This document shows positions 2,035 through 24,378 of a stretch of 64,000 nt of DNA, in pieces. The position numbers and the translations under genes were made by a program. This stretch comes from Cyanobacteria bacterium FACHB-471 (GTDB lineage Bacteria; Cyanobacteriota; Cyanobacteriia; Elainellales; Elainellaceae). Every line of letters begins with the position of its first letter. The stretch's first letter is position 1. Under the pieces are notes generated by a model, which searched no databases, had not been told where the DNA came from, and saw only the letters and a list, made by a program, of their open reading frames with translations. The stretch is from positions 186,001 to 250,000 of the forward strand of contig JACJOC010000049.1 of assembly GCA_014695345.1 (NCBI GenBank), in the 5' to 3' direction.

Positions 2035-3438
2035 CTATTTAACAACAGCAGCTATAGTTCCTTGTGCTTCTAATAAGGCAGCGGCACGTAAGATTGAAGC
2101 TTCCTGGTAAGGGGCAGCAATGATTTGCACACCTAATGGCAAGCCGTTAGCTTGCTGAATGGGCACAGACAAGACTGGTAAACCAACGAAAGATAGTGGC
2201 TGAGTATATAACCCTAGATTAGGACGAGTTAAAACTTCCGCCCCATCTATAACCATTTTCTCTTGACTGATTAAAGGCGCAACACAGGGCGTTGTTGGAG
2301 CCACAATTAGATCTACGGTTTGAAAGATCTCCTGAAGGCGATCGCTATACCACTTGCGAAATCGCTGTGCCTGTACGTACCAACTGCCAGGAATCATTGT
2401 GCCTGCCAGAAAGCGATCGCGAGTTGCCGGATCAAAATCTTGAGGACGAGATTTAAGGTTAGCAAAATGCAGATTGCTGCCCTCACAAGCTGTGATTACG
2501 TAAGCAGCAGCTCTGGCCCGATGTGCTTCAGGAATGGTGACTCGCTGGCTGGACCCAAGCGCCTGAGCGACCTGTTCAACTGCGGCTAAAGTTTCTGGCT
2601 CAGCACCTTTGGCAAAGTACCCATCTGCAATGGCAATTCGCAATCCGTCAATACCTTTGTTGATTTGAGGCAAACAAGATTCTGGTGGGCGGGTAGTGCA
2701 AACCGGGTCACGGGCATCTGCACCTTGAAGCAGGTCAAACACAGCTGCAATATCGCGCACCGACCGGGCAAAAGGGCCGACATGATCAAAACTGTTGCAA
2801 AACAGAAACGCTCCAGCTCGTGATAACCGACCGTAGGTTGGTTTTAACCCCAAAATGCCGCACAGTGAAGCAGGCACACGAATCGACCCGTTGGTGTCAG
2901 AACCAAGGCTAATCGGCATCAATCCACCTGCAACTGCGGCGGCTGACCCTCCTGATGACCCACCGGCAATCCGGTTCAAATCATGAGGGTTGTGAGTTGC
3001 CCCGTAATGGCTGTTTTCGGTGACAAAACCATAAGCATACTCATCCATGTTGAGCGCGCCGACCAAGATTGCCCCGGCTTGCTTCAGTCTGGCAACAAGA
3101 GTCGCATCTTGGGTCGCAGGTGAATTTTCTCGGTTAATCTTTGAACCTGCTAGGGTCGTCAGTCCCTCAATATCAAATAGGTCTTTGACCGCAAAGGGAA
3201 CTCCTGCCAGCACTCCCGGATCTTGACCAGCCGCGATCGCCTCATCTACCTGAATTGCACTGGCGATCGCCTGATCTGCCATTACGGTCGTGAAGCAATT
3301 GAGTGGATCTTTAGCTGCAATTCGCTCTAGCGCTGCGGAAACCACTGCTTTGGCGGTTATTTCACCCGATCGCACCGCAGTTGAAATGGCGATCGCATCC
3401 GCCTGTTCGAGATCCAACGTTTCGAGATCTAATGTCAT
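2035..3438 (-). CDS. atzE: AtzE-type amidohydrolase (amidase signature family)
   Basis: This 467-residue amidase-signature enzyme has the complete Ser-cisSer-Lys triad: Lys85 (PFAVKDLFDI), cis-Ser161 (GGSSGGSAAAVAGG) and nucleophile Ser185 (GSDTNGSIRVPA). The family includes GatA, but AtzE-type members act with a tiny AtzG partner. In the cyanuric-acid pathway AtzE hydrolyses 1-carboxybiuret to urea-1,3-dicarboxylate. The AtzE reading rests on the adjacent atzG-like gene, whose stop overlaps this start (ATGA, translational coupling). No gatB/gatC lies nearby. The substrate in this organism is inferred; a general amidase or indole-acetamide hydrolase cannot be excluded. Confidence 0.8.
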   Translation of the reverse strand: MTLDLETLDLEQADAIAISTAVRSGEITAKAVVSAALERIAAKDPLNCFTTVMADQAIASAIQVDEAIAAGQDPGVLAGVPFAVKDLFDIEGLTTLAGSKINRENSPATQDATLVARLKQAGAILVGALNMDEYAYGFVTENSHYGATHNPHDLNRIAGGSSGGSAAAVAGGLMPISLGSDTNGSIRVPASLCGILGLKPTYGRLSRAGAFLFCNSFDHVGPFARSVRDIAAVFDLLQGADARDPVCTTRPPESCLPQINKGIDGLRIAIADGYFAKGAEPETLAAVEQVAQALGSSQRVTIPEAHRARAAAYVITACEGSNLHFANLKSRPQDFDPATRDRFLAGTMIPGSWYVQAQRFRKWYSDRLQEIFQTVDLIVAPTTPCVAPLISQEKMVIDGAEVLTRPNLGLYTQPLSFVGLPVLSVPIQQANGLPLGVQIIAAPYQEASILRAAALLEAQGTIAAVVK

Positions 3439-3635
3439 GGTTGAAAAGGCTGGAATGTGGGTGCGGCAACGGTGTCTTCAGGCAAGGGAAATTCCAAAAC
3501 AAGTTGGGCGATCGTGGCAATTCTGCTGAAATTATCAATAACTCCGGGGCGATGTTCGGGAGCGATTGGCAATTCTAGGGCGAGCGCCATCTGGTCAACA
3601 TAGGCTGCTGGGTCAAATTCTGCCGAATCGAGCAT
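3435..3635 (-). CDS. AtzG-like small subunit (DUF4089)
   Basis: From the ATG at 3635 this encodes about 66 residues; an in-frame GTG at 3665 would add ten. The sequence (MLDSAEFDPAAYVDQMALAL, then LPIAPEHRPGVIDNFSRIA) matches the DUF4089/AtzG pattern: an acidic start and a helical bundle like that of GatC. AtzG is the obligate small partner of AtzE, wrapping round the amidase as GatC does round GatA. The stop overlaps the start of the amidase gene by 4 nt, the arrangement expected for a stoichiometric complex. The short length, domain pattern and coupling together make the call fairly safe. Confidence 0.8.
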   Translation of the reverse strand: MLDSAEFDPAAYVDQMALALELPIAPEHRPGVIDNFSRIATIAQLVLEFPLPEDTVAAPTFQPFQP

Positions 3636-3746
3636 TGCTTCTGTTCTGATGTAAAATTCACACACTTAGCCTTTAAGCATATATCTTAAGATTGGACTAC
3701 GCCTGACGTTTTTATTACACTCCTGGAGTTTAACTAGTACCTAATA

Positions 3747-15812: not shown

Positions 15813-16217
15813 CTATCTCAAGAGTTTTGGCTTACAGCTTGTGGTGTAGGCACGCCAGCCGCCCCATTGAGTAATTTCAAGTTGGTCTTTGCAGAGAAAG
15901 GCTTCTCCAAGAACACCTAGAACCACTTCGCCATTGTTCAAACGAACCTTGCCAATGCAAAGCCCGGGGGGTTCTTGTAGCAAAATCTGGCAAACGCCTG
16001 CGGGAGGAACTGCCCAGATTTCGACGGCGATCGCTGCTCCTCCTTCAGCAACTTTCATCATGGCGGGATGGCGGTCGGCAATTGACCAGAGCCGATAAGC
16101 GGGTTCTGTAATGGTTTCTCGCACAAACTCAGCGCCCGCTTTTTGTAGATTTTGGTTTAATTCCAGTCCGCGCATCAGGGTGCCGTTGACTGCCAGGTAA
16201 ATTTTCTTCATCTGCAC
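15813..16217 (-). CDS. Allophanate hydrolase C-terminal-domain (AHC) related protein
   Basis: This 134-residue protein starts with KKIYLAVNGTLMRGLELNQN, the fold-opening motif of the gamma-glutamylcyclotransferase-like AHC domain at the end of allophanate hydrolases. It continues with AYRLWSIADRHPAM and GEVVLGVLGEA. In full-length allophanate hydrolase an amidase domain attacks allophanate, and the C domain is reported to help convert the resulting N-carboxycarbamate. Here the domain is free-standing, with no amidase part. It directly abuts a biuret/triuret-type hydrolase gene (stop and start adjacent) and is the last gene of the operon, so a role in ureide breakdown is a fair inference. Activity is unknown. 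Confidence 0.72.
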   Translation of the reverse strand: MQMKKIYLAVNGTLMRGLELNQNLQKAGAEFVRETITEPAYRLWSIADRHPAMMKVAEGGAAIAVEIWAVPPAGVCQILLQEPPGLCIGKVRLNNGEVVLGVLGEAFLCKDQLEITQWGGWRAYTTSCKPKLLR

Positions 16218-16937
16218 CTAACCAACCGGAGTATTGACTAAATCCAGAGCAGCCTTGGGAGTATCCCAGCCCGTTTCTGCTAGTCCTTGTAAGACCGCAG
16301 CGGCGGGAGCAGTCCAGCCAACAATGCCGCCTTGAGCGCAAACCATTTCTAGCGTGGCTTGCTTGAACTCAGGGAAGTAGCTCTCGGTGCAGTCTTCTAT
16401 TAGCAGGCACTCATAGCCGCGGTCGTTGGCTTCTCGCATCGTGGTTTGAACGCAGACTTCGGTGGTTACACCAGTAATCAACAGATGAGTGATGCCTCGT
16501 TCCTGCAAGTGGGTTGCTAGATCCGTGTTGTAGAAAGCGCCCTTTCCTGGCTTGTAAATGATGGTTTCTCCTGAAACGGGTGCCAGTTCTGAAATGATGC
16601 CGTTTCCAGGTTCGCCTTTGATTAGGATTCGTCCCATCGGTCCGGGGTCGCCAATTTTGAGCGCAGCTTTACCCCGATTGAGTTTGGCGGGCGGACAGTC
16701 TGATAGGTCAGGCTGATGACACTCAATTGTGTGAAAGACGGGTAAGCGATACTGCCGAAATGCTGCCAGCAACTGTCTTAGCGTTGGTACGATCGCCTGC
16801 AATCGGCTGACATCATTTCCTAAAGCATCTCCGAAACCGCCTGGTTTCAGGAAATCTCGCTGCATGTCAATGATGATCAGTGCTACGCCAGTCAGAGGCA
16901 GTTCGTAATTGTAGGGTTTAGCGGGAATGGTGATCAT
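16218..16937 (-). CDS. Isochorismatase-family cysteine hydrolase (triuret/biuret hydrolase-like)
   Basis: This 239-residue cysteine hydrolase has the triad Asp24 (IIIDMQRDF), Lys129 ([13 protein letters not shown]) and Cys162 ([19 protein letters not shown]). It also has the [19 protein letters not shown] loop and a cis-peptide TGVTTE. It is a clear paralogue of the hydrolase at 18624-19310, sharing the [19 protein letters not shown] and QGG segments, but it differs round the substrate pocket and lacks that protein's N-terminal Tyr/Pro-rich strand. The group includes biuret hydrolase BiuH and triuret hydrolase TrtA, which remove terminal amide nitrogen as ammonia. Its place beside the AHC gene and transporter ATPase suggests a related ureide substrate. 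Which one is not visible. Confidence 0.82.
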
Positions 16938-16946
16938 AGGTTTCTT

Positions 16947-18494
16947 CTAATGTCCTGCCATGCTGCGTCCGATGGTGGCAAAGTCGGCTTGGGCGATCGC
17001 ACTTTCATAGACAAACTTGCCGCCGCTGATCACGAGAATGCGATCAGATAGCTTCAGCAACTCGTCCAGGTCTTCGCTGACCAGAAGGACAGCGACTCCT
17101 CGATTGCGGGCTGCAACAATTTGACCGTGAATGAACTCGACAGCGGCAAAATCTAAGCCAAAACAGGGGTTGGCAGCAATCAGTAGTTTGATTTGATCAG
17201 CAGACAATTCCCTTGCCAAAACGGTCCGCTGCACGTTTCCCCCTGATAAATTGCCGACGGGCGTTTCGGGTGAGGGGGTTTTGACCGAAAACTGCTGGAT
17301 TAAACCTTGAGCGGCTTGGCGCATGGCTTTCAAGATGAGCAAAAAGCCTTTTGCTTGGGGTGGACGGTCAAAGGTTCGTAGGGCCATATTTTCTGCCACG
17401 CTCATGTGAGGCACGCAGGCGTTGCGGAGCGGTTCTTCTGGCAGAGCAAAGACTTTGTGTTTATACATCTCCCGCCGAGTGGCGTTGTAGGGTTCGCCGT
17501 TTACCCAAACTTCGCCGCTGGTGGCGGAGCGCTGTCCAGCTAGCACTTCTACCAGTTCTCGCTGCCCGTTACCTGAGATTCCTGCAATGCCAACGATCTC
17601 GCCACTGTAAACGGTCAGGTTAACACCTAAGACTGCTTCTAAGCCGTTGTCTTTATTGGCACAGATATCTCTGATTTCTAAAACGGGAACCGGATCGGGA
17701 TGGTCTGTTTTCTCGACGGGGGTGGGTTCGCGGCGATCGCCCATCATCATTTCAGACATATCGGAGACGGTCAGGTCGCGCACCATGCCATGACCCGCAA
17801 ATTTGCCTTTTCGCAAAATGGTGACTTCATCAACAAAGGCCATGACTTCTCGGAATTTGTGGGAAATCATCAGGACGCTGAGCTTTCCGGCAGTCACCTG
17901 TTCGCGCAGCAAGCCCAGTACCTCGTCTGCCTCACCGGGAGTCAAGACGGAAGTAGGTTCGTCAAGGATGAGAATTTTGCTCTTGAGATAGAGCTGTTTG
18001 AGGATTTCTAGTTTTTGCTTTTGTCCGGCGGCAAGCTGAGCAATGGGAACATCCAGTGGCACTTGAAAGGGTGCCGTTTTCATGAAGGCATTAAGCTGCT
18101 CGTATTCAGCTTTCCAGTTGATCAAGTTCGTGCTATCAAAGCGAGACAGCACCAGGTTCTCAGCTACCGTCATGGCGGGGACGGAGGTGAAATGCTGGTA
18201 GACCATGCCAATTCCGTATTTGTGGGCATCGCGGGGGCTGGCGATCGCCCGACTCTGCTGATTGATCAATACTTCACCCGATGTGGGTGTGTAAAATCCC
18301 ATGACGCACTTGACCAGGGTGCTTTTACCGGCTCCGTTTTCGCCCAACAGCGCGTGAAAGGTTCCCGGTTTGAGATGCAGGGAGACGTTATCTAGAGCAA
18401 CCAGGCTGCCAAAGCGTTTGGTCATGCTGACGACTTCTAGCTCTGGCGGCTTTTCGATCTCAACGGTGGAAAGTTTTTCGGTTGCGGTTGTCAT
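16947..18494 (-). CDS. ABC transporter ATPase, two NBDs (BMP/nucleoside-ureide importer)
   Basis: This 515-residue protein has two fused nucleotide-binding domains. The first is complete: Walker A GENGAGKST, Walker B ILILDEPTSVLTP and a signature-like LAAGQKQKLEI. The second has the degenerate Walker A GISGNGQRELVE, signature LSGGNVQRTVLAREL and a Walker B-like AANPCFGLDFAA. This asymmetry is typical of importers of the CUT2/BMP group such as NupO/YufO. It would energise the two permeases at 21076-23157 and work with the binding protein at 23206-24378. It sits between two hydrolase genes, 9 bp from the downstream one, so transport and hydrolysis genes are interleaved on one strand. Confidence 0.9.
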   Translation of the reverse strand: MTTATEKLSTVEIEKPPELEVVSMTKRFGSLVALDNVSLHLKPGTFHALLGENGAGKSTLVKCVMGFYTPTSGEVLINQQSRAIASPRDAHKYGIGMVYQHFTSVPAMTVAENLVLSRFDSTNLINWKAEYEQLNAFMKTAPFQVPLDVPIAQLAAGQKQKLEILKQLYLKSKILILDEPTSVLTPGEADEVLGLLREQVTAGKLSVLMISHKFREVMAFVDEVTILRKGKFAGHGMVRDLTVSDMSEMMMGDRREPTPVEKTDHPDPVPVLEIRDICANKDNGLEAVLGVNLTVYSGEIVGIAGISGNGQRELVEVLAGQRSATSGEVWVNGEPYNATRREMYKHKVFALPEEPLRNACVPHMSVAENMALRTFDRPPQAKGFLLILKAMRQAAQGLIQQFSVKTPSPETPVGNLSGGNVQRTVLARELSADQIKLLIAANPCFGLDFAAVEFIHGQIVAARNRGVAVLLVSEDLDELLKLSDRILVISGGKFVYESAIAQADFATIGRSMAGH

Positions 18495-18623: not shown

Positions 18624-19310
18624 CTACAGTGTTTGGAGGGCTTCGATTAGGGCAGTGGAGGGGGCGATCGCACCAAACACGCCGCCTTGCATGGTCACCA
18701 TTTTTAGGGCGGCAAGGTGGTTGCCGTAGTCGCTAGCTCCGGTGCAGTCGGAGAGCAGCAGGCATTCGTAGCCGCGATCGTTGGCATCGCGCATGGTGGT
18801 ATGGACGCAAACATCAGTTGTTACGCCTGCCAGAATGATGTTTTGAATGCCTTTGCGCTGAAGCAACAGGTCTAGATCGGTAGCGTAGAAGGAACCTTTG
18901 CCGGGTTTGTCGATAATCGTCTCGCCAGGAAGGGGAGCCAGTTCAGGAATGATTTCCCAGCCCGGTTCGCCGCGCACCAAAATTTTGCCACAGGGTCCAG
19001 GGTCGCCGATGCCTGCGCCGATTTGGCGCGATCGCCACTGTTTGTTCTCAGGCAAATCTGACAAATCAGGGCGATGTCCTTCGCGGGTATGCATGATGTG
19101 AAATCCCTTTTTACGCATCACGCTTAGTAGCTGCTTGATTGGTTCAATTGGGGCACGGGTGAGGGAAAGGTCATAGCCCATCTTGTCTACATAGCCGCCG
19201 ATGCCACAAAAGTCGGTCTGCATGTCGATGATCAGCAGCACGGTGTTGCCTGGACGTAGCTCACCGTTGTAAGGATAGGGGTAGGGTTCTGAGTTGACGT
19301 AAAGACCCAT
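18624..19310 (-). CDS. biuH: Biuret amidohydrolase-like cysteine hydrolase (BiuH type)
   Basis: This 228-residue isochorismatase-fold hydrolase has the triad Asp29 ([12 protein letters not shown]), Lys135 ([14 protein letters not shown]) and Cys168 ([13 protein letters not shown]). The N-terminal [16 protein letters not shown], the [20 protein letters not shown] stretch and [13 protein letters not shown] are, as far as I recall, close to Rhizobium biuret hydrolase BiuH. That enzyme splits biuret to allophanate and ammonia. This is the strongest substrate pointer in the operon. The related triuret hydrolase TrtA shares the fold and motifs, so triuret cannot be excluded without alignment. Its neighbours are the transporter ATPase downstream and formamidase upstream. 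Confidence 0.82.
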
Positions 19311-19421: not shown

Positions 19422-20441
19422 CTAACCCAACACGTCGGCTGGAACTTCTTCGCCCCGGTAAGTGCGGGTTGGGGCCGGGAAACCGCAGGAAGTACCGTTT
19501 GTGTGAACGACTTGTTCTTCCCAAGGGAGGCGGTAGTTGCCGTTCACCAAATCCTGCATATAGGTATAGGGGCAGTCTTGCGCTCCGCCTTTGACGGCGG
19601 TGTAGCCGCGATGCCCAAACTGGTAGATGTTATTCTCAACCGACCAATGATTTCGAGCTTCACGCACTAAGTCGGGGCGCAACTCGGCGGTGATAATCTC
19701 GTTGGGGCGGTGGCTACCCATTGCCAATGGAGTGCCATCAAAGTTGACGAACATTCCTTCGCCCATTGAGTCAAAGGTGCCGTCGGTGCCGCACATACAA
19801 ACCGAAGCGGTGTACATCAGATTGCAAAAGGCGTTTGCCTGATTAGTGATGCGCCAGGAATGCCGAATTGGAGCAGTGTAGCCCGCTGTGCGAATCATGA
19901 TTTCGGCTCCTTTGTAGGCACATTCTCGTGCCATCTCCGGGAACATACCGTCGTGGCAGATGATTAGGGCGATCGCACTGCCATTTGGACCTTCACAGAC
20001 TGGAATGCCGATATTTCCCGGCTCCCAGGGTTCTACAGGTACCCAGGGATGCAGCTTGCGATAGTAGAGCCGCAATTCACCTTTGTCGTCCAGGATGATG
20101 CCGCTGTTGTAGGGGTTGCCGTGTGGATTGTATTCCATGATGGAAAAGCAACCCCAGATGCGGTTGTCCCGACAGGCAGTCTGGAACGCCTCAACTTCTG
20201 GACCATCCAACCGACACATAATCTCTGGATTGGTGTCCATTGATAGCCCGTGCAGAGCATATTCTGGGAACACCACCAAGTCCATCGTGGGCATATTGCG
20301 CCGAGCTTTGCCAACCATGTCGCAAACGCGATCGGTTTGCGCTGCCAGGTCATCGGGCGTAACTACCGTTGGCAGTTGCAGTTGCACCATGCCGAGAACT
20401 ACGCCGTTAGGAGATTTGTTTAAGCCGCCAAGACCATTCAT
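19422..20441 (-). CDS. amiF: Formamidase (aliphatic amidase/nitrilase superfamily)
   Basis: This 339-residue nitrilase-superfamily enzyme has the Glu-Lys-Cys triad Glu60 (LVVFPEYALHGLS), Lys129 (RLYYRKLHPWVP) and Cys162 (ALIICHDGMFPEMA). The 33-residue Lys-Cys spacing matches AmiF. Formamidase hydrolyses formamide to formate and ammonia. Aliphatic amidase (AmiE) is the close alternative; the MNGLGGLNKSPNGVV start and C-terminal TSCGFPAP stretch are what I associate with AmiF. It is encoded with a BMP-type transporter and two ureide-type hydrolases, which fits nitrogen scavenging in the cytosol. A family D repeat separates it from the next gene and 634 bp of repeats separate it from the permease upstream. 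Confidence 0.88.
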   Translation of the reverse strand: MNGLGGLNKSPNGVVLGMVQLQLPTVVTPDDLAAQTDRVCDMVGKARRNMPTMDLVVFPEYALHGLSMDTNPEIMCRLDGPEVEAFQTACRDNRIWGCFSIMEYNPHGNPYNSGIILDDKGELRLYYRKLHPWVPVEPWEPGNIGIPVCEGPNGSAIALIICHDGMFPEMARECAYKGAEIMIRTAGYTAPIRHSWRITNQANAFCNLMYTASVCMCGTDGTFDSMGEGMFVNFDGTPLAMGSHRPNEIITAELRPDLVREARNHWSVENNIYQFGHRGYTAVKGGAQDCPYTYMQDLVNGNYRLPWEEQVVHTNGTSCGFPAPTRTYRGEEVPADVLG

Positions 20442-20607: not shown

Positions 20608-20901
20608 ATGAGGGTTTGAGTTCGGCAAATGAGGGTTTGAACCCGGAGAATGGAGTCCTGAACTGGAGCGATGCTGTTCTAAACAAGAATGATGCAGTCT
20701 TAAACAGGAACGATGTCGCTTCAAACAAGAACAATGCTGTTCTGAGTGAGAATAATGCTGTTCTAAACAAAAACAATGCTGTTCTAAGTAAGAACGATGC
20801 TGTTTTGAACAAGAACGATGCTGTTCTAAACAGGAATGGTAGGGGTTTGAACTAGAATGGTGAGACTTTGACCTGAAATGTTGCAACCTTGAGCTTAAAC
20901 A
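20608..20901. repeat. Tandem array of fourteen 21-bp units
   Basis: Fourteen consecutive units of exactly 21 bp; the central eight are closest to ATGCTGTTCTAAACAAGAAC plus G, and both ends decay. All units keep length 21, so several frames stay open and read as heptapeptide repeats (for example NDAVLNK on the plus strand). No start or ribosome site supports a real protein. Confidence 0.9.
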
Positions 20902-21075: not shown

Positions 21076-22002
21076 CTAAGTATCTGTGCCCAAGGCACCT
21101 GGCGCACCGGACAGCGTGCGTTTTGGTGAACAGGTGATGATCATGATCAGCAAGGTCAACACATAAGGGGCAGCGTTGAACAAGTAATAGCCCTGCTCAA
21201 TGCCGACTGACTGAAGTGCCGGTCCCAGTGCCTGAGCACCCCCAAACAAGAGGGAAGCCCAGAGACATTGAATCGGATTCCAGTGAGCAAAAATTACGAG
21301 AGCGACAGCCATCAAGCCTTGACCGCTAGAAACCCGTTCGCTCCAGAGTCCGGGATAGTAGAGCGATAAGGAAGCTCCGCCAATTCCGGCTAAAAAGCTG
21401 CCTGCTACGACGCTGAGCATTCGCACCTTGAAGATGGAAACGCCCATTGCTCTAGCAGCTTCAGGGCTGTCGCCCACTGCACGAATAAACAAACCCCAGC
21501 GAGTTGATTGGAAGAACCAGTGCATCAGGGGGGCGATCGCCACACCCAACAAAAACAAGGGGCTAATCTGTAATGCCGACTGCACAGGCGGCAAACTGCT
21601 CCAGGCTCCTAAATTAATCGTTGCCAGTTGTGGAGCAGACGGCTGAATGAATGGCTTCCCCAGAAAAAAGGCGATGCCGCTGCCAAAAATGATCATGGCA
21701 ATGCCCACCGCAACGTCATTCACCCTAGGCTGCTGAGAAAGCCAACCGTGAATTAAACCGAATATCACGCCTGCGAGTCCAGCGGCAATCACGCCTAACC
21801 AGGGCGACCCAGTGAGATAGGAAATGGCGTAGGCGCTCATTGCACCCATCAGCAACGTTCCTTCTAAACCCAGGTTGATTTTGCCGCTCTTTTCGGTCAG
21901 ACATTCACCCAAGCTGACAAATAGGAAGGGCGTTCCCCCGCGCATCATACCAGCGGCGATCGCCAACGGTACCCCCCACCAACCGAGTGCTTCTGTTGCC
22001 AT
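21076..22002 (-). CDS. ABC transporter permease 2 (BMP/nucleoside type)
   Basis: This is a 308-residue membrane protein from the ATG at 22002, preceded by an AAGGAGA ribosome site that decides the start; the frame extends to 22044 without one. It has about eight hydrophobic segments and the family motifs LGLEGTLLMGAMSAY and RAVGDSPEAARAMGVS, the latter being the cytosolic coupling helix of the branched-chain/BMP permease family. NupQ/YufQ-like proteins pair with a larger NupP partner, here the gene upstream. Predicted substrates of this group include nucleosides and purines; the enclosed hydrolases point instead to amide- or urea-like compounds. Confidence 0.88.
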   Translation of the reverse strand: MATEALGWWGVPLAIAAGMMRGGTPFLFVSLGECLTEKSGKINLGLEGTLLMGAMSAYAISYLTGSPWLGVIAAGLAGVIFGLIHGWLSQQPRVNDVAVGIAMIIFGSGIAFFLGKPFIQPSAPQLATINLGAWSSLPPVQSALQISPLFLLGVAIAPLMHWFFQSTRWGLFIRAVGDSPEAARAMGVSIFKVRMLSVVAGSFLAGIGGASLSLYYPGLWSERVSSGQGLMAVALVIFAHWNPIQCLWASLLFGGAQALGPALQSVGIEQGYYLFNAAPYVLTLLIMIITCSPKRTLSGAPGALGTDT

Positions 22003-22025
22003 TAGTAGAATCTCCTTATAAGTGT

Positions 22026-22067
22026 GGGGTTTGTAGAAGCGCAATTAATTGCGCTTCTACAAACCCC
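22026..22067. repeat. Perfect 42-bp palindrome between the permease genes
   Basis: Twenty-one bases (from GGGGTTTGTAGAAGC, centre GCAATT) are followed immediately by their exact complement, with no loop. In mRNA this would form a long hairpin in the 72-bp gap between the two permease genes, just upstream of the ribosome site of the second. It belongs to no coding sequence. Confidence 0.93.
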
Positions 22068-22074
22068 TAGCCCC

Positions 22075-23157
22075 TCACACCACTGCCGTAACTGCGGGTG
22101 CAGACGGAGCCTTGACAATAGGCTCTTTGAAGATGGCAAATTTGCCGTAGAGCGATTCGCTAAACAGGACAACCAGGAAGACGAGTCCCTGGAAGACCAG
22201 AACGGTTGCGTCGGGCAGATTGTGCGATCGCTGCAAAATGCCGCCACTCGCAAGAATTCCGCCTAGCATGATAGACACGAGTGCCGCCGCTAGCGGATTA
22301 TGTCGAGCAATGAAGGCAACCAGAATGCCGCCATACCCGTAGTTAGCATTTAGCGATTCGTTGGCGCGACCATGAACGGCTGCAACTTCAACCATGCCCG
22401 CCAAACCTGCACAGGAGCCTGCCAGGAAGCAAATTGCCATCGTTAGTTTGCCGACGGGCAGTCCGGCGATGCGGGCGGCGCGAATGTTTCCTCCCGCAGT
22501 TCGAGCAGCAAAGCCAAAGGTGGTGCGCTGAATCAGGAAGTAGGCGATCGCACAGGCAATCAGTCCGTAAATCAGTCCGTAGTGAATTCGAGTGCCAGGA
22601 ATAGAGCCCAGCATATTGATTTCAGCGATCGGATAGGTGGAAGGCTTGTTGAGCGAACTGGGGTCACGCATGGGACCACCGACTAAGTGGTTGAGCAGGG
22701 CGATCGCAATATAGTTCATCAGCAAACTGCTGATCGTCTCATTCACAGCGCGGTAGTGCCGCAATGCACCGACCGCACCAATCCACAAACCGCCCGCTGC
22801 CATTCCTGCCAGTGCCATACCGATCTGTACAACCGTAGGTGGGGCAGTAGACAGTGCCAATCCAGCCGCAACTGCACCCAAGCCACCCACGACTAATGCG
22901 CCCTCGTTGCCAATAATCACCAACCCTAGACGAGCAGGAAGCGCCGTACACAAGGCACTTAACATCAGCGGTGAAGCTCGAATCAGCGTATTTTGAAACG
23001 TGCTCCAACTGCCGAATGCTGCCTTCCAAATCGAGGCATATACGCCAAAAGGATTTGCCCCCGCAGCCGCGCAAAATGCGCCAAACAGGACGAGTGAAAA
23101 GGCTAAAGCGCCAACCGGAATGCAGATAGATTCCAGGGTTTTACGATGAGCGACCAT
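22075..23157 (-). CDS. ABC transporter permease 1 (BMP/nucleoside type)
   Basis: This 360-residue polytopic membrane protein has about nine or ten hydrophobic segments, motif NEGALVVGGLGAV and the coupling segment GGNIRAARIAGLPVGKL typical of the NupP/YufP branch. An N-terminal hydrophobic stretch with FCAAAGANPFGVYASIWKAAFG and a YGYGGILVAFIARHNPLAA motif near the end are family features. It forms the membrane heterodimer with permease 2. The binding-protein gene lies 48 bp upstream on the same strand, so this is the front of the transporter part of the operon. Confidence 0.88.
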   Translation of the reverse strand: MVAHRKTLESICIPVGALAFSLVLFGAFCAAAGANPFGVYASIWKAAFGSWSTFQNTLIRASPLMLSALCTALPARLGLVIIGNEGALVVGGLGAVAAGLALSTAPPTVVQIGMALAGMAAGGLWIGAVGALRHYRAVNETISSLLMNYIAIALLNHLVGGPMRDPSSLNKPSTYPIAEINMLGSIPGTRIHYGLIYGLIACAIAYFLIQRTTFGFAARTAGGNIRAARIAGLPVGKLTMAICFLAGSCAGLAGMVEVAAVHGRANESLNANYGYGGILVAFIARHNPLAAALVSIMLGGILASGGILQRSHNLPDATVLVFQGLVFLVVLFSESLYGKFAIFKEPIVKAPSAPAVTAVV

Positions 23158-23205: not shown

Positions 23206-24378
23206 TTAGCTAGCAACGCTACCAATCACCCCTTCGACTAGATAATTCATCTGCTCCAGCACAGGGTCTTGCTGCTTCAGCGATTGACTCGCTTCAACCA
23301 CAACTGCGCCCGTGTTGTCCTTAATCTCACCGTTGTAAATCACCATACTGCCGTCCATAAAGGCAGCTTTGGCGGCTTCAGCATCCTGCTTTGCCTGCTC
23401 ACTCACTGCTGGACCGTACTCTGAAAGCTTCCAGAAGCCCTCAGCCAAACCGCCCCGGAGGATATGAGGAATGCTGCCATCCATCAAGTTTTTGCCAGCG
23501 TGAATGTCTTCAGCGATCTTGGAATAAACGCTCGTCCAATCCCATTCAGCACCCGTGAGATAGCCCTTGGGTGCTAGAGCCGTTTGGTCAGCGTGATAAC
23601 CAGAGGAAAAAATGCCCCGCTTTTCTGCGGTTTCCATCACCACTTTGGGGCTATCCACATGACAGGTGAGCACATCAATTCCCTGGTCAGCCATGCTGTT
23701 TGCAGCTTCTGCTTCCTTGACTGGCAGGGCCCAATCTCCGGTAAAAATAGCCTGTGTCGTCACTTCGGGTTTGACACTACGGGCACCCAGCGTGAAGCTG
23801 TTAATATTTCTGAGAACCTGAGGAATTGGCTTTGCGCCGATAAATCCTAATTTTCCAGTTTTGGACGTGTGAGCAGCAACAATTCCAGCAATGTACTGTG
23901 CCTCGTCAATGTAGCCAAAATAGCTAGCTACATTAACCGGATGAGTTCCTTCCTGGTAAAGTCCACCACAGTGAAAGAACTGTACGTCGGGATATTCTTC
24001 TGCCAGCTTGAGAATGTGAGGGTCAAAGTAGCCAAAAGATGTGGGGAAGAGAACAGTTGCACCGTCGATGTCGATCATGCTTCGCATCGATTCCTCAACC
24101 GCAGTGGTTTCTGGAACGCTGGCTTCTTCAACGATCTTGACCCAATCAAAACTCTCTACAACCCCAGCTGCGCCTTCTGCGTGTGCCTGGTTGTAACCGT
24201 AGTCATCTTTAGGTCCAACGTAAATAAAGCCCATCGTAACTTGGTCTGTAGCACCCCCACCCCCCTCGGCTGAGCTGCACCCAGTGCCAAAACGAGCAGT
24301 AATGCCAAAAGCCGTCGTGGCAAGCAAGCCTCGAATGACTTGGCGGCGAGATAGGTGTAGAAGCTTTCTATTACTCAC
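23206..24378 (-). CDS. BMP family ABC transporter substrate-binding lipoprotein
   Basis: This 390-residue exported protein starts at a GTG (24378) with a GAGAGG ribosome site. The N-terminus carries a twin-arginine-like signal (LSRRQVIRGLLATTAF) and then a possible lipobox ending at Cys34 (GTGC), so it may be a Tat-exported lipoprotein. The body has the BMP/PnrA pattern: MGFIYVGPKDDYGYNQAHAEGA, then GKLGFIGAKPIPQVLRNIN and GIDVLTCHVDSP, and YHADQTALAPKGYLTGAEWDW. Known BMP proteins bind purine nucleosides, but related ones are linked to other small N-compounds. It is the first gene of the minus-strand nitrogen run. Confidence 0.9.
   Translation of the reverse strand: MSNRKLLHLSRRQVIRGLLATTAFGITARFGTGCSSAEGGGGATDQVTMGFIYVGPKDDYGYNQAHAEGAAGVVESFDWVKIVEEASVPETTAVEESMRSMIDIDGATVLFPTSFGYFDPHILKLAEEYPDVQFFHCGGLYQEGTHPVNVASYFGYIDEAQYIAGIVAAHTSKTGKLGFIGAKPIPQVLRNINSFTLGARSVKPEVTTQAIFTGDWALPVKEAEAANSMADQGIDVLTCHVDSPKVVMETAEKRGIFSSGYHADQTALAPKGYLTGAEWDWTSVYSKIAEDIHAGKNLMDGSIPHILRGGLAEGFWKLSEYGPAVSEQAKQDAEAAKAAFMDGSMVIYNGEIKDNTGAVVVEASQSLKQQDPVLEQMNYLVEGVIGSVAS

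Follow-up and report, generated by a model that had tools for sequence, protein, structure and literature searches.

The C domain of allophanate hydrolase decarboxylates N-carboxycarbamate. The N and C domains of the enzyme are reported to carry out sequential reactions in allophanate breakdown, one of them being catalysed by the C domain (PMC5770610). In the triuret/biuret operons of Rhizobium, Sulfitobacter and Ideonella, the TrtA-BiuH-AtzF pathway has been described (PMC7948467), whereas the fate of the allophanate formed by BiuH in R. leguminosarum has been stated to be unknown (PMC5806882, PMC6219798), and biuH is often found without atzF in ammonia-oxidising archaea (PMC12625717). Free-standing proteins consisting of the C domain (AH_C) are already known as sequences and one of them has a solved structure, E. 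coli c4763 (PDB 5c5z; 'allophanate hydrolase-related protein' WP_000214035 at NCBI). We found no published function for c4763.

The stretch of DNA analysed here (the window) comprises 64,000 nucleotides from Cyanobacteria bacterium FACHB-471 and carries an operon which is collinear with these triuret/biuret operons and ends with a gene for a free-standing AH_C protein. This protein belongs to a clade which we call AHC_A. The genes of the operon are:

15813 to 16217, minus strand: free-standing AH_C domain protein of the AHC_A clade (PF21986, PDB 5c5z and Z scores of the model)
16218 to 16937, minus strand: triuret hydrolase TrtA, isochorismatase-like (score to 6xix and residues)
16947 to 18494, minus strand: ABC importer ATPase with two ATPase domains (Pfam ABC_tran; 56% identity to the ATPase of the R. 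leguminosarum pRL10 operon)
18624 to 19310, minus strand: biuret hydrolase BiuH (NCBIfam NF050097, 409.7 bits at a cut-off of 370; 408 bits to BiuH 6azo)
19422 to 20441, minus strand: formamidase AmiF (NCBIfam NF009803, 575.8 bits at a cut-off of 406)
21076 to 22044, minus strand: ABC importer permease 1 (Pfam BPD_transp_2; collinear in pRL10)
22075 to 23157, minus strand: ABC importer permease 2 (Pfam BPD_transp_2; collinear in pRL10)
23206 to 24378, minus strand: BMP-type substrate-binding protein, the first gene of the operon (Pfam Bmp, E 5e-38; collinear in pRL10)

The AHC_A gene is thus the last one, with all the others upstream on the same strand. The order BMP-permease-permease-(AmiF)-BiuH-ABC-TrtA is common to the window, R. 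leguminosarum pRL10, Sulfitobacter and Ideonella; the position after TrtA is occupied by full-length AtzF in Ideonella and by AH_C alone in the window. The two hydrolases were told apart by score and by the residues which PMC7948467 gives as distinctive. The product of 16218 to 16937 scored 299 bits against TrtA 6xix and 216 bits against the biuret hydrolase 6xjm, and it contains all the TrtA-specific residues (F35, N41, E160, Y187 and I205) as well as the catalytic D24, K129 and C162. The specificity residues of BiuH all agree in the product of 18624 to 19310 save for one position, where Ser replaces Thr. The 634-bp gap between the formamidase and permease genes contains a degenerate 21-bp tandem repeat of about 8-10 copies (20608-20836). 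Nine NtcA-type boxes GTAN8TAC were found in the window (5 expected), none of them at a convincing promoter position for the operon. The search for a terminator between the AHC_A gene and the next gene yielded one weak plus-strand match, not above chance.

The open reading frame of AHC_A is real and lies on the minus strand, a strand that the initial annotation did not give: it has 134 codons counted from the GTG at 16217, and the plus strand is interrupted by several stops across 15813-16217. An alternative ATG at 16211, two codons inside the frame and preceded by TAGGTG (which includes the stop of the preceding gene), is judged from the sequence to be the likelier start, which would give a protein of 132 amino acids (15813-16211). 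Pfam AH_C (PF21986) matched residues 7-125 of the protein with model positions 2-122 of 123 (E 8.9e-40, 135.9 bits, cut-off 27), and the Pfam profile search found no amidase domain in it, so that the initial annotation was right in describing the protein as the AH_C domain alone. Sequence searches gave similarity far above chance, with E 3.8e-42 for 5c5z and E 1.3e-10 for the allophanate hydrolase 4gyr. The AlphaFold2 model (25 relatives as input, mean pLDDT 85.8) matches 5c5z (Z 21.3) and also 4iss, the allophanate hydrolase of K. lactis, in its C domain (Z 19.9, rmsd 1.8 over 128 aligned residues), so that the fold comparison with the yeast enzyme which had been suggested along with the annotation came out in its favour. 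The allophanate hydrolase model TIGR02713 (EC 3.5.1.54) reached 98 bits against a cut-off of 511 and matched with its last ~125 positions only. Membership in two other families was rejected: the AtzH-like profile PF11533 gave no match at E 0.1, and the GGACT profile PF06094 scored 19.4 bits, below its cut-off of 22.8.

A maximum-likelihood tree of 57 AH_C domains resolved three clades. One (support 97/94) unites the AH_C domains of allophanate hydrolases, whether fused or split. AHC_A, with 27 rows, forms its own (97/89), to which the window protein, c4763 of E. coli and the fusions of AH_C to carbamate kinase in mycobacteria belong. The third clade, AHC_B, is also free-standing (99/98). Gly12 and Glu66 are common to all three and the GGW motif is nearly always present. 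AHC_A therefore shares the Pfam domain, the fold, Glu66 and GGW with the C domains of allophanate hydrolases and urea amidolyases (K. lactis 4iss, G. bethesdensis 4gyr, AtzF), but it has no fused amidase, forms a separate clade and carries an invariant VNGTL in place of the VVGAH of allophanate hydrolases. This replacement may shift recognition from a second carboxylate to an amide. AHC_B and the allantoinase PuuE are found in exactly the same set of 25 among the 386 cyanobacteria and lie less than 1 kb apart in eight of these (L066:8881-9375; contig C103:26105-26464 of the genome studied here; L059-L078). AHC_B is thus a candidate to fill a gap in allantoin breakdown, for instance as ureidoglycolate lyase.

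E. coli c4763 is 54-58% identical to the window protein. Its operon in strain CFT073 (L219:13190-20403) differs from that in the window: it consists of genes for a TrtA-type hydrolase, an AllH/AllF/AllG-like carbamoyltransferase, carbamate kinase, AHC_A and a cytosine permease, and BiuH is absent. This composition suggests an energy-yielding breakdown of triuret or biuret. The mycobacterial carbamate kinase-AHC_A fusions (L196:8972-10387, L203, L209, L218) are likewise adjoined by genes for a TrtA-type hydrolase and an FdrA-like carbamoyltransferase.

Two AH_C proteins are encoded in the genome from which the window comes (7.15 Mb, 99.9% complete), and each of them is free-standing; its five amidases all lack a fused AH_C. 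A complete allophanate hydrolase containing its own C domain, the finding that would have spoken against the initial annotation, is therefore not encoded elsewhere in this genome. Among 386 cyanobacterial genomes, AHC_A was found in 13 and intact BiuH also in 13, with both present in 12 (Fisher 9e-21, uncorrected for kinship; the 12 genomes span nine families). In four of these 12 the two genes lie apart and AHC_A is retained even so. The sole genome with BiuH and no AHC_A (G060) has a urea carboxylase-amidase-AH_C cluster, i.e. a split allophanate hydrolase. Complete allophanate hydrolase was absent from 33 of 34 AHC_A genomes of several phyla. In a further 49 genomes, nearly all chosen because neither TrtA nor BiuH lies near AHC_A, one or both of these were found elsewhere in 38; the remaining 11, several of which are MAGs, had neither. 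A decaying triuret operon was seen in G215 (contig C57:11920-17192), with BiuH and AH_C interrupted by stops and TrtA still open.

If AHC_A yields urea, urease is expected to act next. The genome studied here has two urease alpha genes. Of 45 genomes tested, 39 have ureC, among them every one of the 13 cyanobacteria, and in six it is weak or absent. Cyanobacteria commonly carry urease, so that finding it in them is weak evidence; its position near AHC_A is more telling. The distance between AHC_A and ureC is 6-16 kb in four Verrucomicrobia and two Sneathiella (9-16 kb in the Verrucomicrobia), and in both Sneathiella AHC_A lies just behind the urease genes. One verrucomicrobial locus carries, on a single strand, ureA/B-ureC-ureF-ureG-BMP-permeases-BiuH-ABC-cupin-AHC_A. 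Except for UreC, UreG and UreB, the urease subunits were assigned from position and length.

We propose that AHC_A is a free-standing decarboxylase of N-carboxylated ureas which chiefly converts allophanate to urea and CO2 and thereby feeds urease, an assignment to which we give an even chance of being correct. The importer would take up triuret or biuret, TrtA would convert triuret to carboxybiuret, and this would pass via biuret to allophanate by the action of BiuH, or take a route through AtzGE. AHC_A would then act on the R-CO-NH-COO- group and release urea and CO2 from allophanate, for which no amidase is needed, and urease would complete the pathway. AHC_A would thus take the place of AtzF, which would deaminate allophanate. 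The proposal rests on the collinear operon, the co-occurrence with BiuH, the near absence of complete allophanate hydrolase from AHC_A genomes and the proximity to ureC, and it builds partly on the C-domain chemistry: allophanate resembles N-carboxycarbamate, with an amide replacing one carboxylate, and may be regarded as the same kind of molecule. The spontaneous decarboxylation of allophanate, which takes place mainly under neutral and acid conditions (PMC7700744), could make an enzyme look superfluous; in an alkaline cytosol, one is nevertheless plausible. Moreover, enzymes have been reported for two related and equally unstable compounds, AtzH (PMC6219798) and TrtB (PMC7948467). The chemistry, the plausible need and these precedents together led us to propose that AHC_A mainly decarboxylates allophanate. 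The 11 AHC_A genomes with neither TrtA nor BiuH count against the proposal, although several are MAGs. The operon of E. coli CFT073 also speaks against allophanate as the substrate, and there carboxybiuret may be the compound acted upon. Since the mycobacterial and Desulfotomaculum AHC_A operons similarly combine a TrtA-type hydrolase with carbamoyltransferase or carbamate kinase genes and lack BiuH, carboxybiuret may also be among the substrates. Both carboxybiuret and 1,3-dicarboxyurea are close alternatives.

The initial annotation offered two explanations, a split enzyme with its amidase encoded elsewhere, possibly by the atzE-like gene at 2035-3438, or a new use of the domain. The atzE-like identity held, and a gene for AtzG was found upstream:

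2035 to 3438, minus strand: AtzE, catalytic subunit of 1-carboxybiuret hydrolase (NCBIfam NF006631, 734 bits at a cut-off of 461)
3435 to 3665, minus strand: AtzG-like subunit, upstream of AtzE (Pfam AtzG-like, 78.2 bits at a cut-off of 24)

AHC_A lies directly before atzG-atzE in 11 other genomes (nine cyanobacteria and two Rokubacteria), which gives substance to the suggested link with AtzE, a possible pathway partner of AHC_A encoded 12 kb away in the window. This arrangement would suit a C domain serving a separately encoded amidase, and genuine split enzymes do occur in other cyanobacteria, with amidase and AH_C genes side by side behind urea carboxylase. Such a split is nevertheless very unlikely for AHC_A and is not the general answer, because AtzE is missing in six of the 12 cyanobacteria having AHC_A and BiuH; AtzE was accordingly rejected as an obligatory partner. 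Any other amidase of the allophanate hydrolase type was rejected too, as none was detected at E 1e-50 in the 13 AHC_A cyanobacteria, the genome studied here included, while it was detected in the four positive-control genomes. The AHC_A clade also stands apart from the fused and split C domains, with N-G-T-L at the invariant positions against V-G-A-H. Of the two explanations offered, the new use is the better reading. The cyanobacterial enzymes split into amidase and AH_C genes were seen at L039, L040, L041, L043, L044 and L062, accompanied by a protein of ~1200 residues, taken as urea carboxylase, at L039, L040, L044 and L062. Like AHC_A, AH_C is a gene of its own there, but unlike AHC_A (compare L039, L040 and L044) it has amidase and urea carboxylase adjacent, and it falls into the allophanate hydrolase clade. 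The same adjacency to atzG-atzE could mean that AHC_A is the counterpart of AtzH and converts the 1,3-dicarboxyurea made by AtzGE to allophanate. AtzH/HpxZ (PF11533), a proposed 1,3-dicarboxyurea decarboxylase (PMC6219798), is a small neighbour of AtzG-AtzE in the same pathway, as AHC_A can be, although it is of an NTF2-type family unrelated to AHC_A. In favour of such a role, one query of limited sensitivity found no AtzH-like gene near 41 AtzE loci. We nevertheless consider this role distinctly improbable, given that half of the AHC_A and BiuH genomes have no AtzE and that 57 of the 63 cyanobacteria with AtzE (among 386) have no AHC_A.

AHC_A might instead perform the TrtB step, the decarboxylation of carboxybiuret, the product of TrtA, to biuret. 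TrtA is its most widespread neighbour, and the AHC_A operons of E. coli, mycobacteria and Desulfotomaculum, which lack BiuH, retain the TrtA-type residues. Carboxybiuret is likewise an N-carboxyureide. In the window, the TrtA stop codon lies directly against the GTG at 16217 (the neighbour had been annotated correctly as a ureide-type hydrolase). A small Cupin_7 protein bears on this reading. It adjoins TrtA in Rhizobium and Sulfitobacter and in many triuret operons (e.g. L220:9662-10015, L221:9722-10006 and L048:1520-1870), and was found neither in the window operon nor in the rest of its genome. Because the cupin follows TrtA in Rhizobium, we take it as TrtB, a likely but unproven identity. 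It is present in eight of the 12 cyanobacteria with AHC_A and BiuH and AtzE in six, at least one of the two occurring in every genome, whereas a close match to the cupin was found in none of the nine cyanobacteria with AHC_A-AtzG-AtzE. The two-sided p of this pattern is 0.06 among the 12 genomes, which is weak, and 5e-4 after adding these nine. It is consistent with carboxybiuret being handled in either of two ways, by decarboxylation, perhaps with the cupin as TrtB, or by AtzGE, and with AHC_A being required whichever of them operates. The carboxybiuret step is variable and AHC_A constant, and AHC_A would therefore act downstream, on the shared product allophanate. The TrtB step is accordingly an unlikely role for AHC_A: it would be redundant in the eight cyanobacteria and the several verrucomicrobial operons which have AHC_A together with the cupin, and it would account neither for the linkage to urease nor for AtzF being absent. 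Finally, AHC_A might be non-catalytic, for example an oligomerisation partner, since a C-terminal fragment of AtzF may influence the oligomeric state (PMC3944691), or a gamma-glutamylcyclotransferase-like enzyme, since GGCT/GGACT enzymes have the fold of the model. Either is most improbable in view of Glu66 and the GGW motif being conserved in the three clades, the GGACT score below its cut-off, and genomic links that are nearly all to ureides.

As regards AHC_A as a proposed allophanate decarboxylase, the new points are its position within the triuret/biuret operon, the near absence of genomes that have both it and AtzF, its link to urease and the functional assignment. We suggest tentatively, and with more doubt than confidence, that free-standing AH_C proteins form a widespread class of N-carboxyurea (allophanate) decarboxylases through which biuret and triuret metabolism has a second way out that depends on urease, that the AtzF fusion is only one branch of the family, and that the third clade, linked to PuuE, carries out a related step that is missing from allantoin breakdown. 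AHC_A is a candidate for the allophanate step after BiuH in cyanobacteria, Verrucomicrobia and others. If the assignment is true, a family with a solved structure, that of E. coli c4763, would acquire a function, and biuret nitrogen could leave as urea and not only through allophanate hydrolase.
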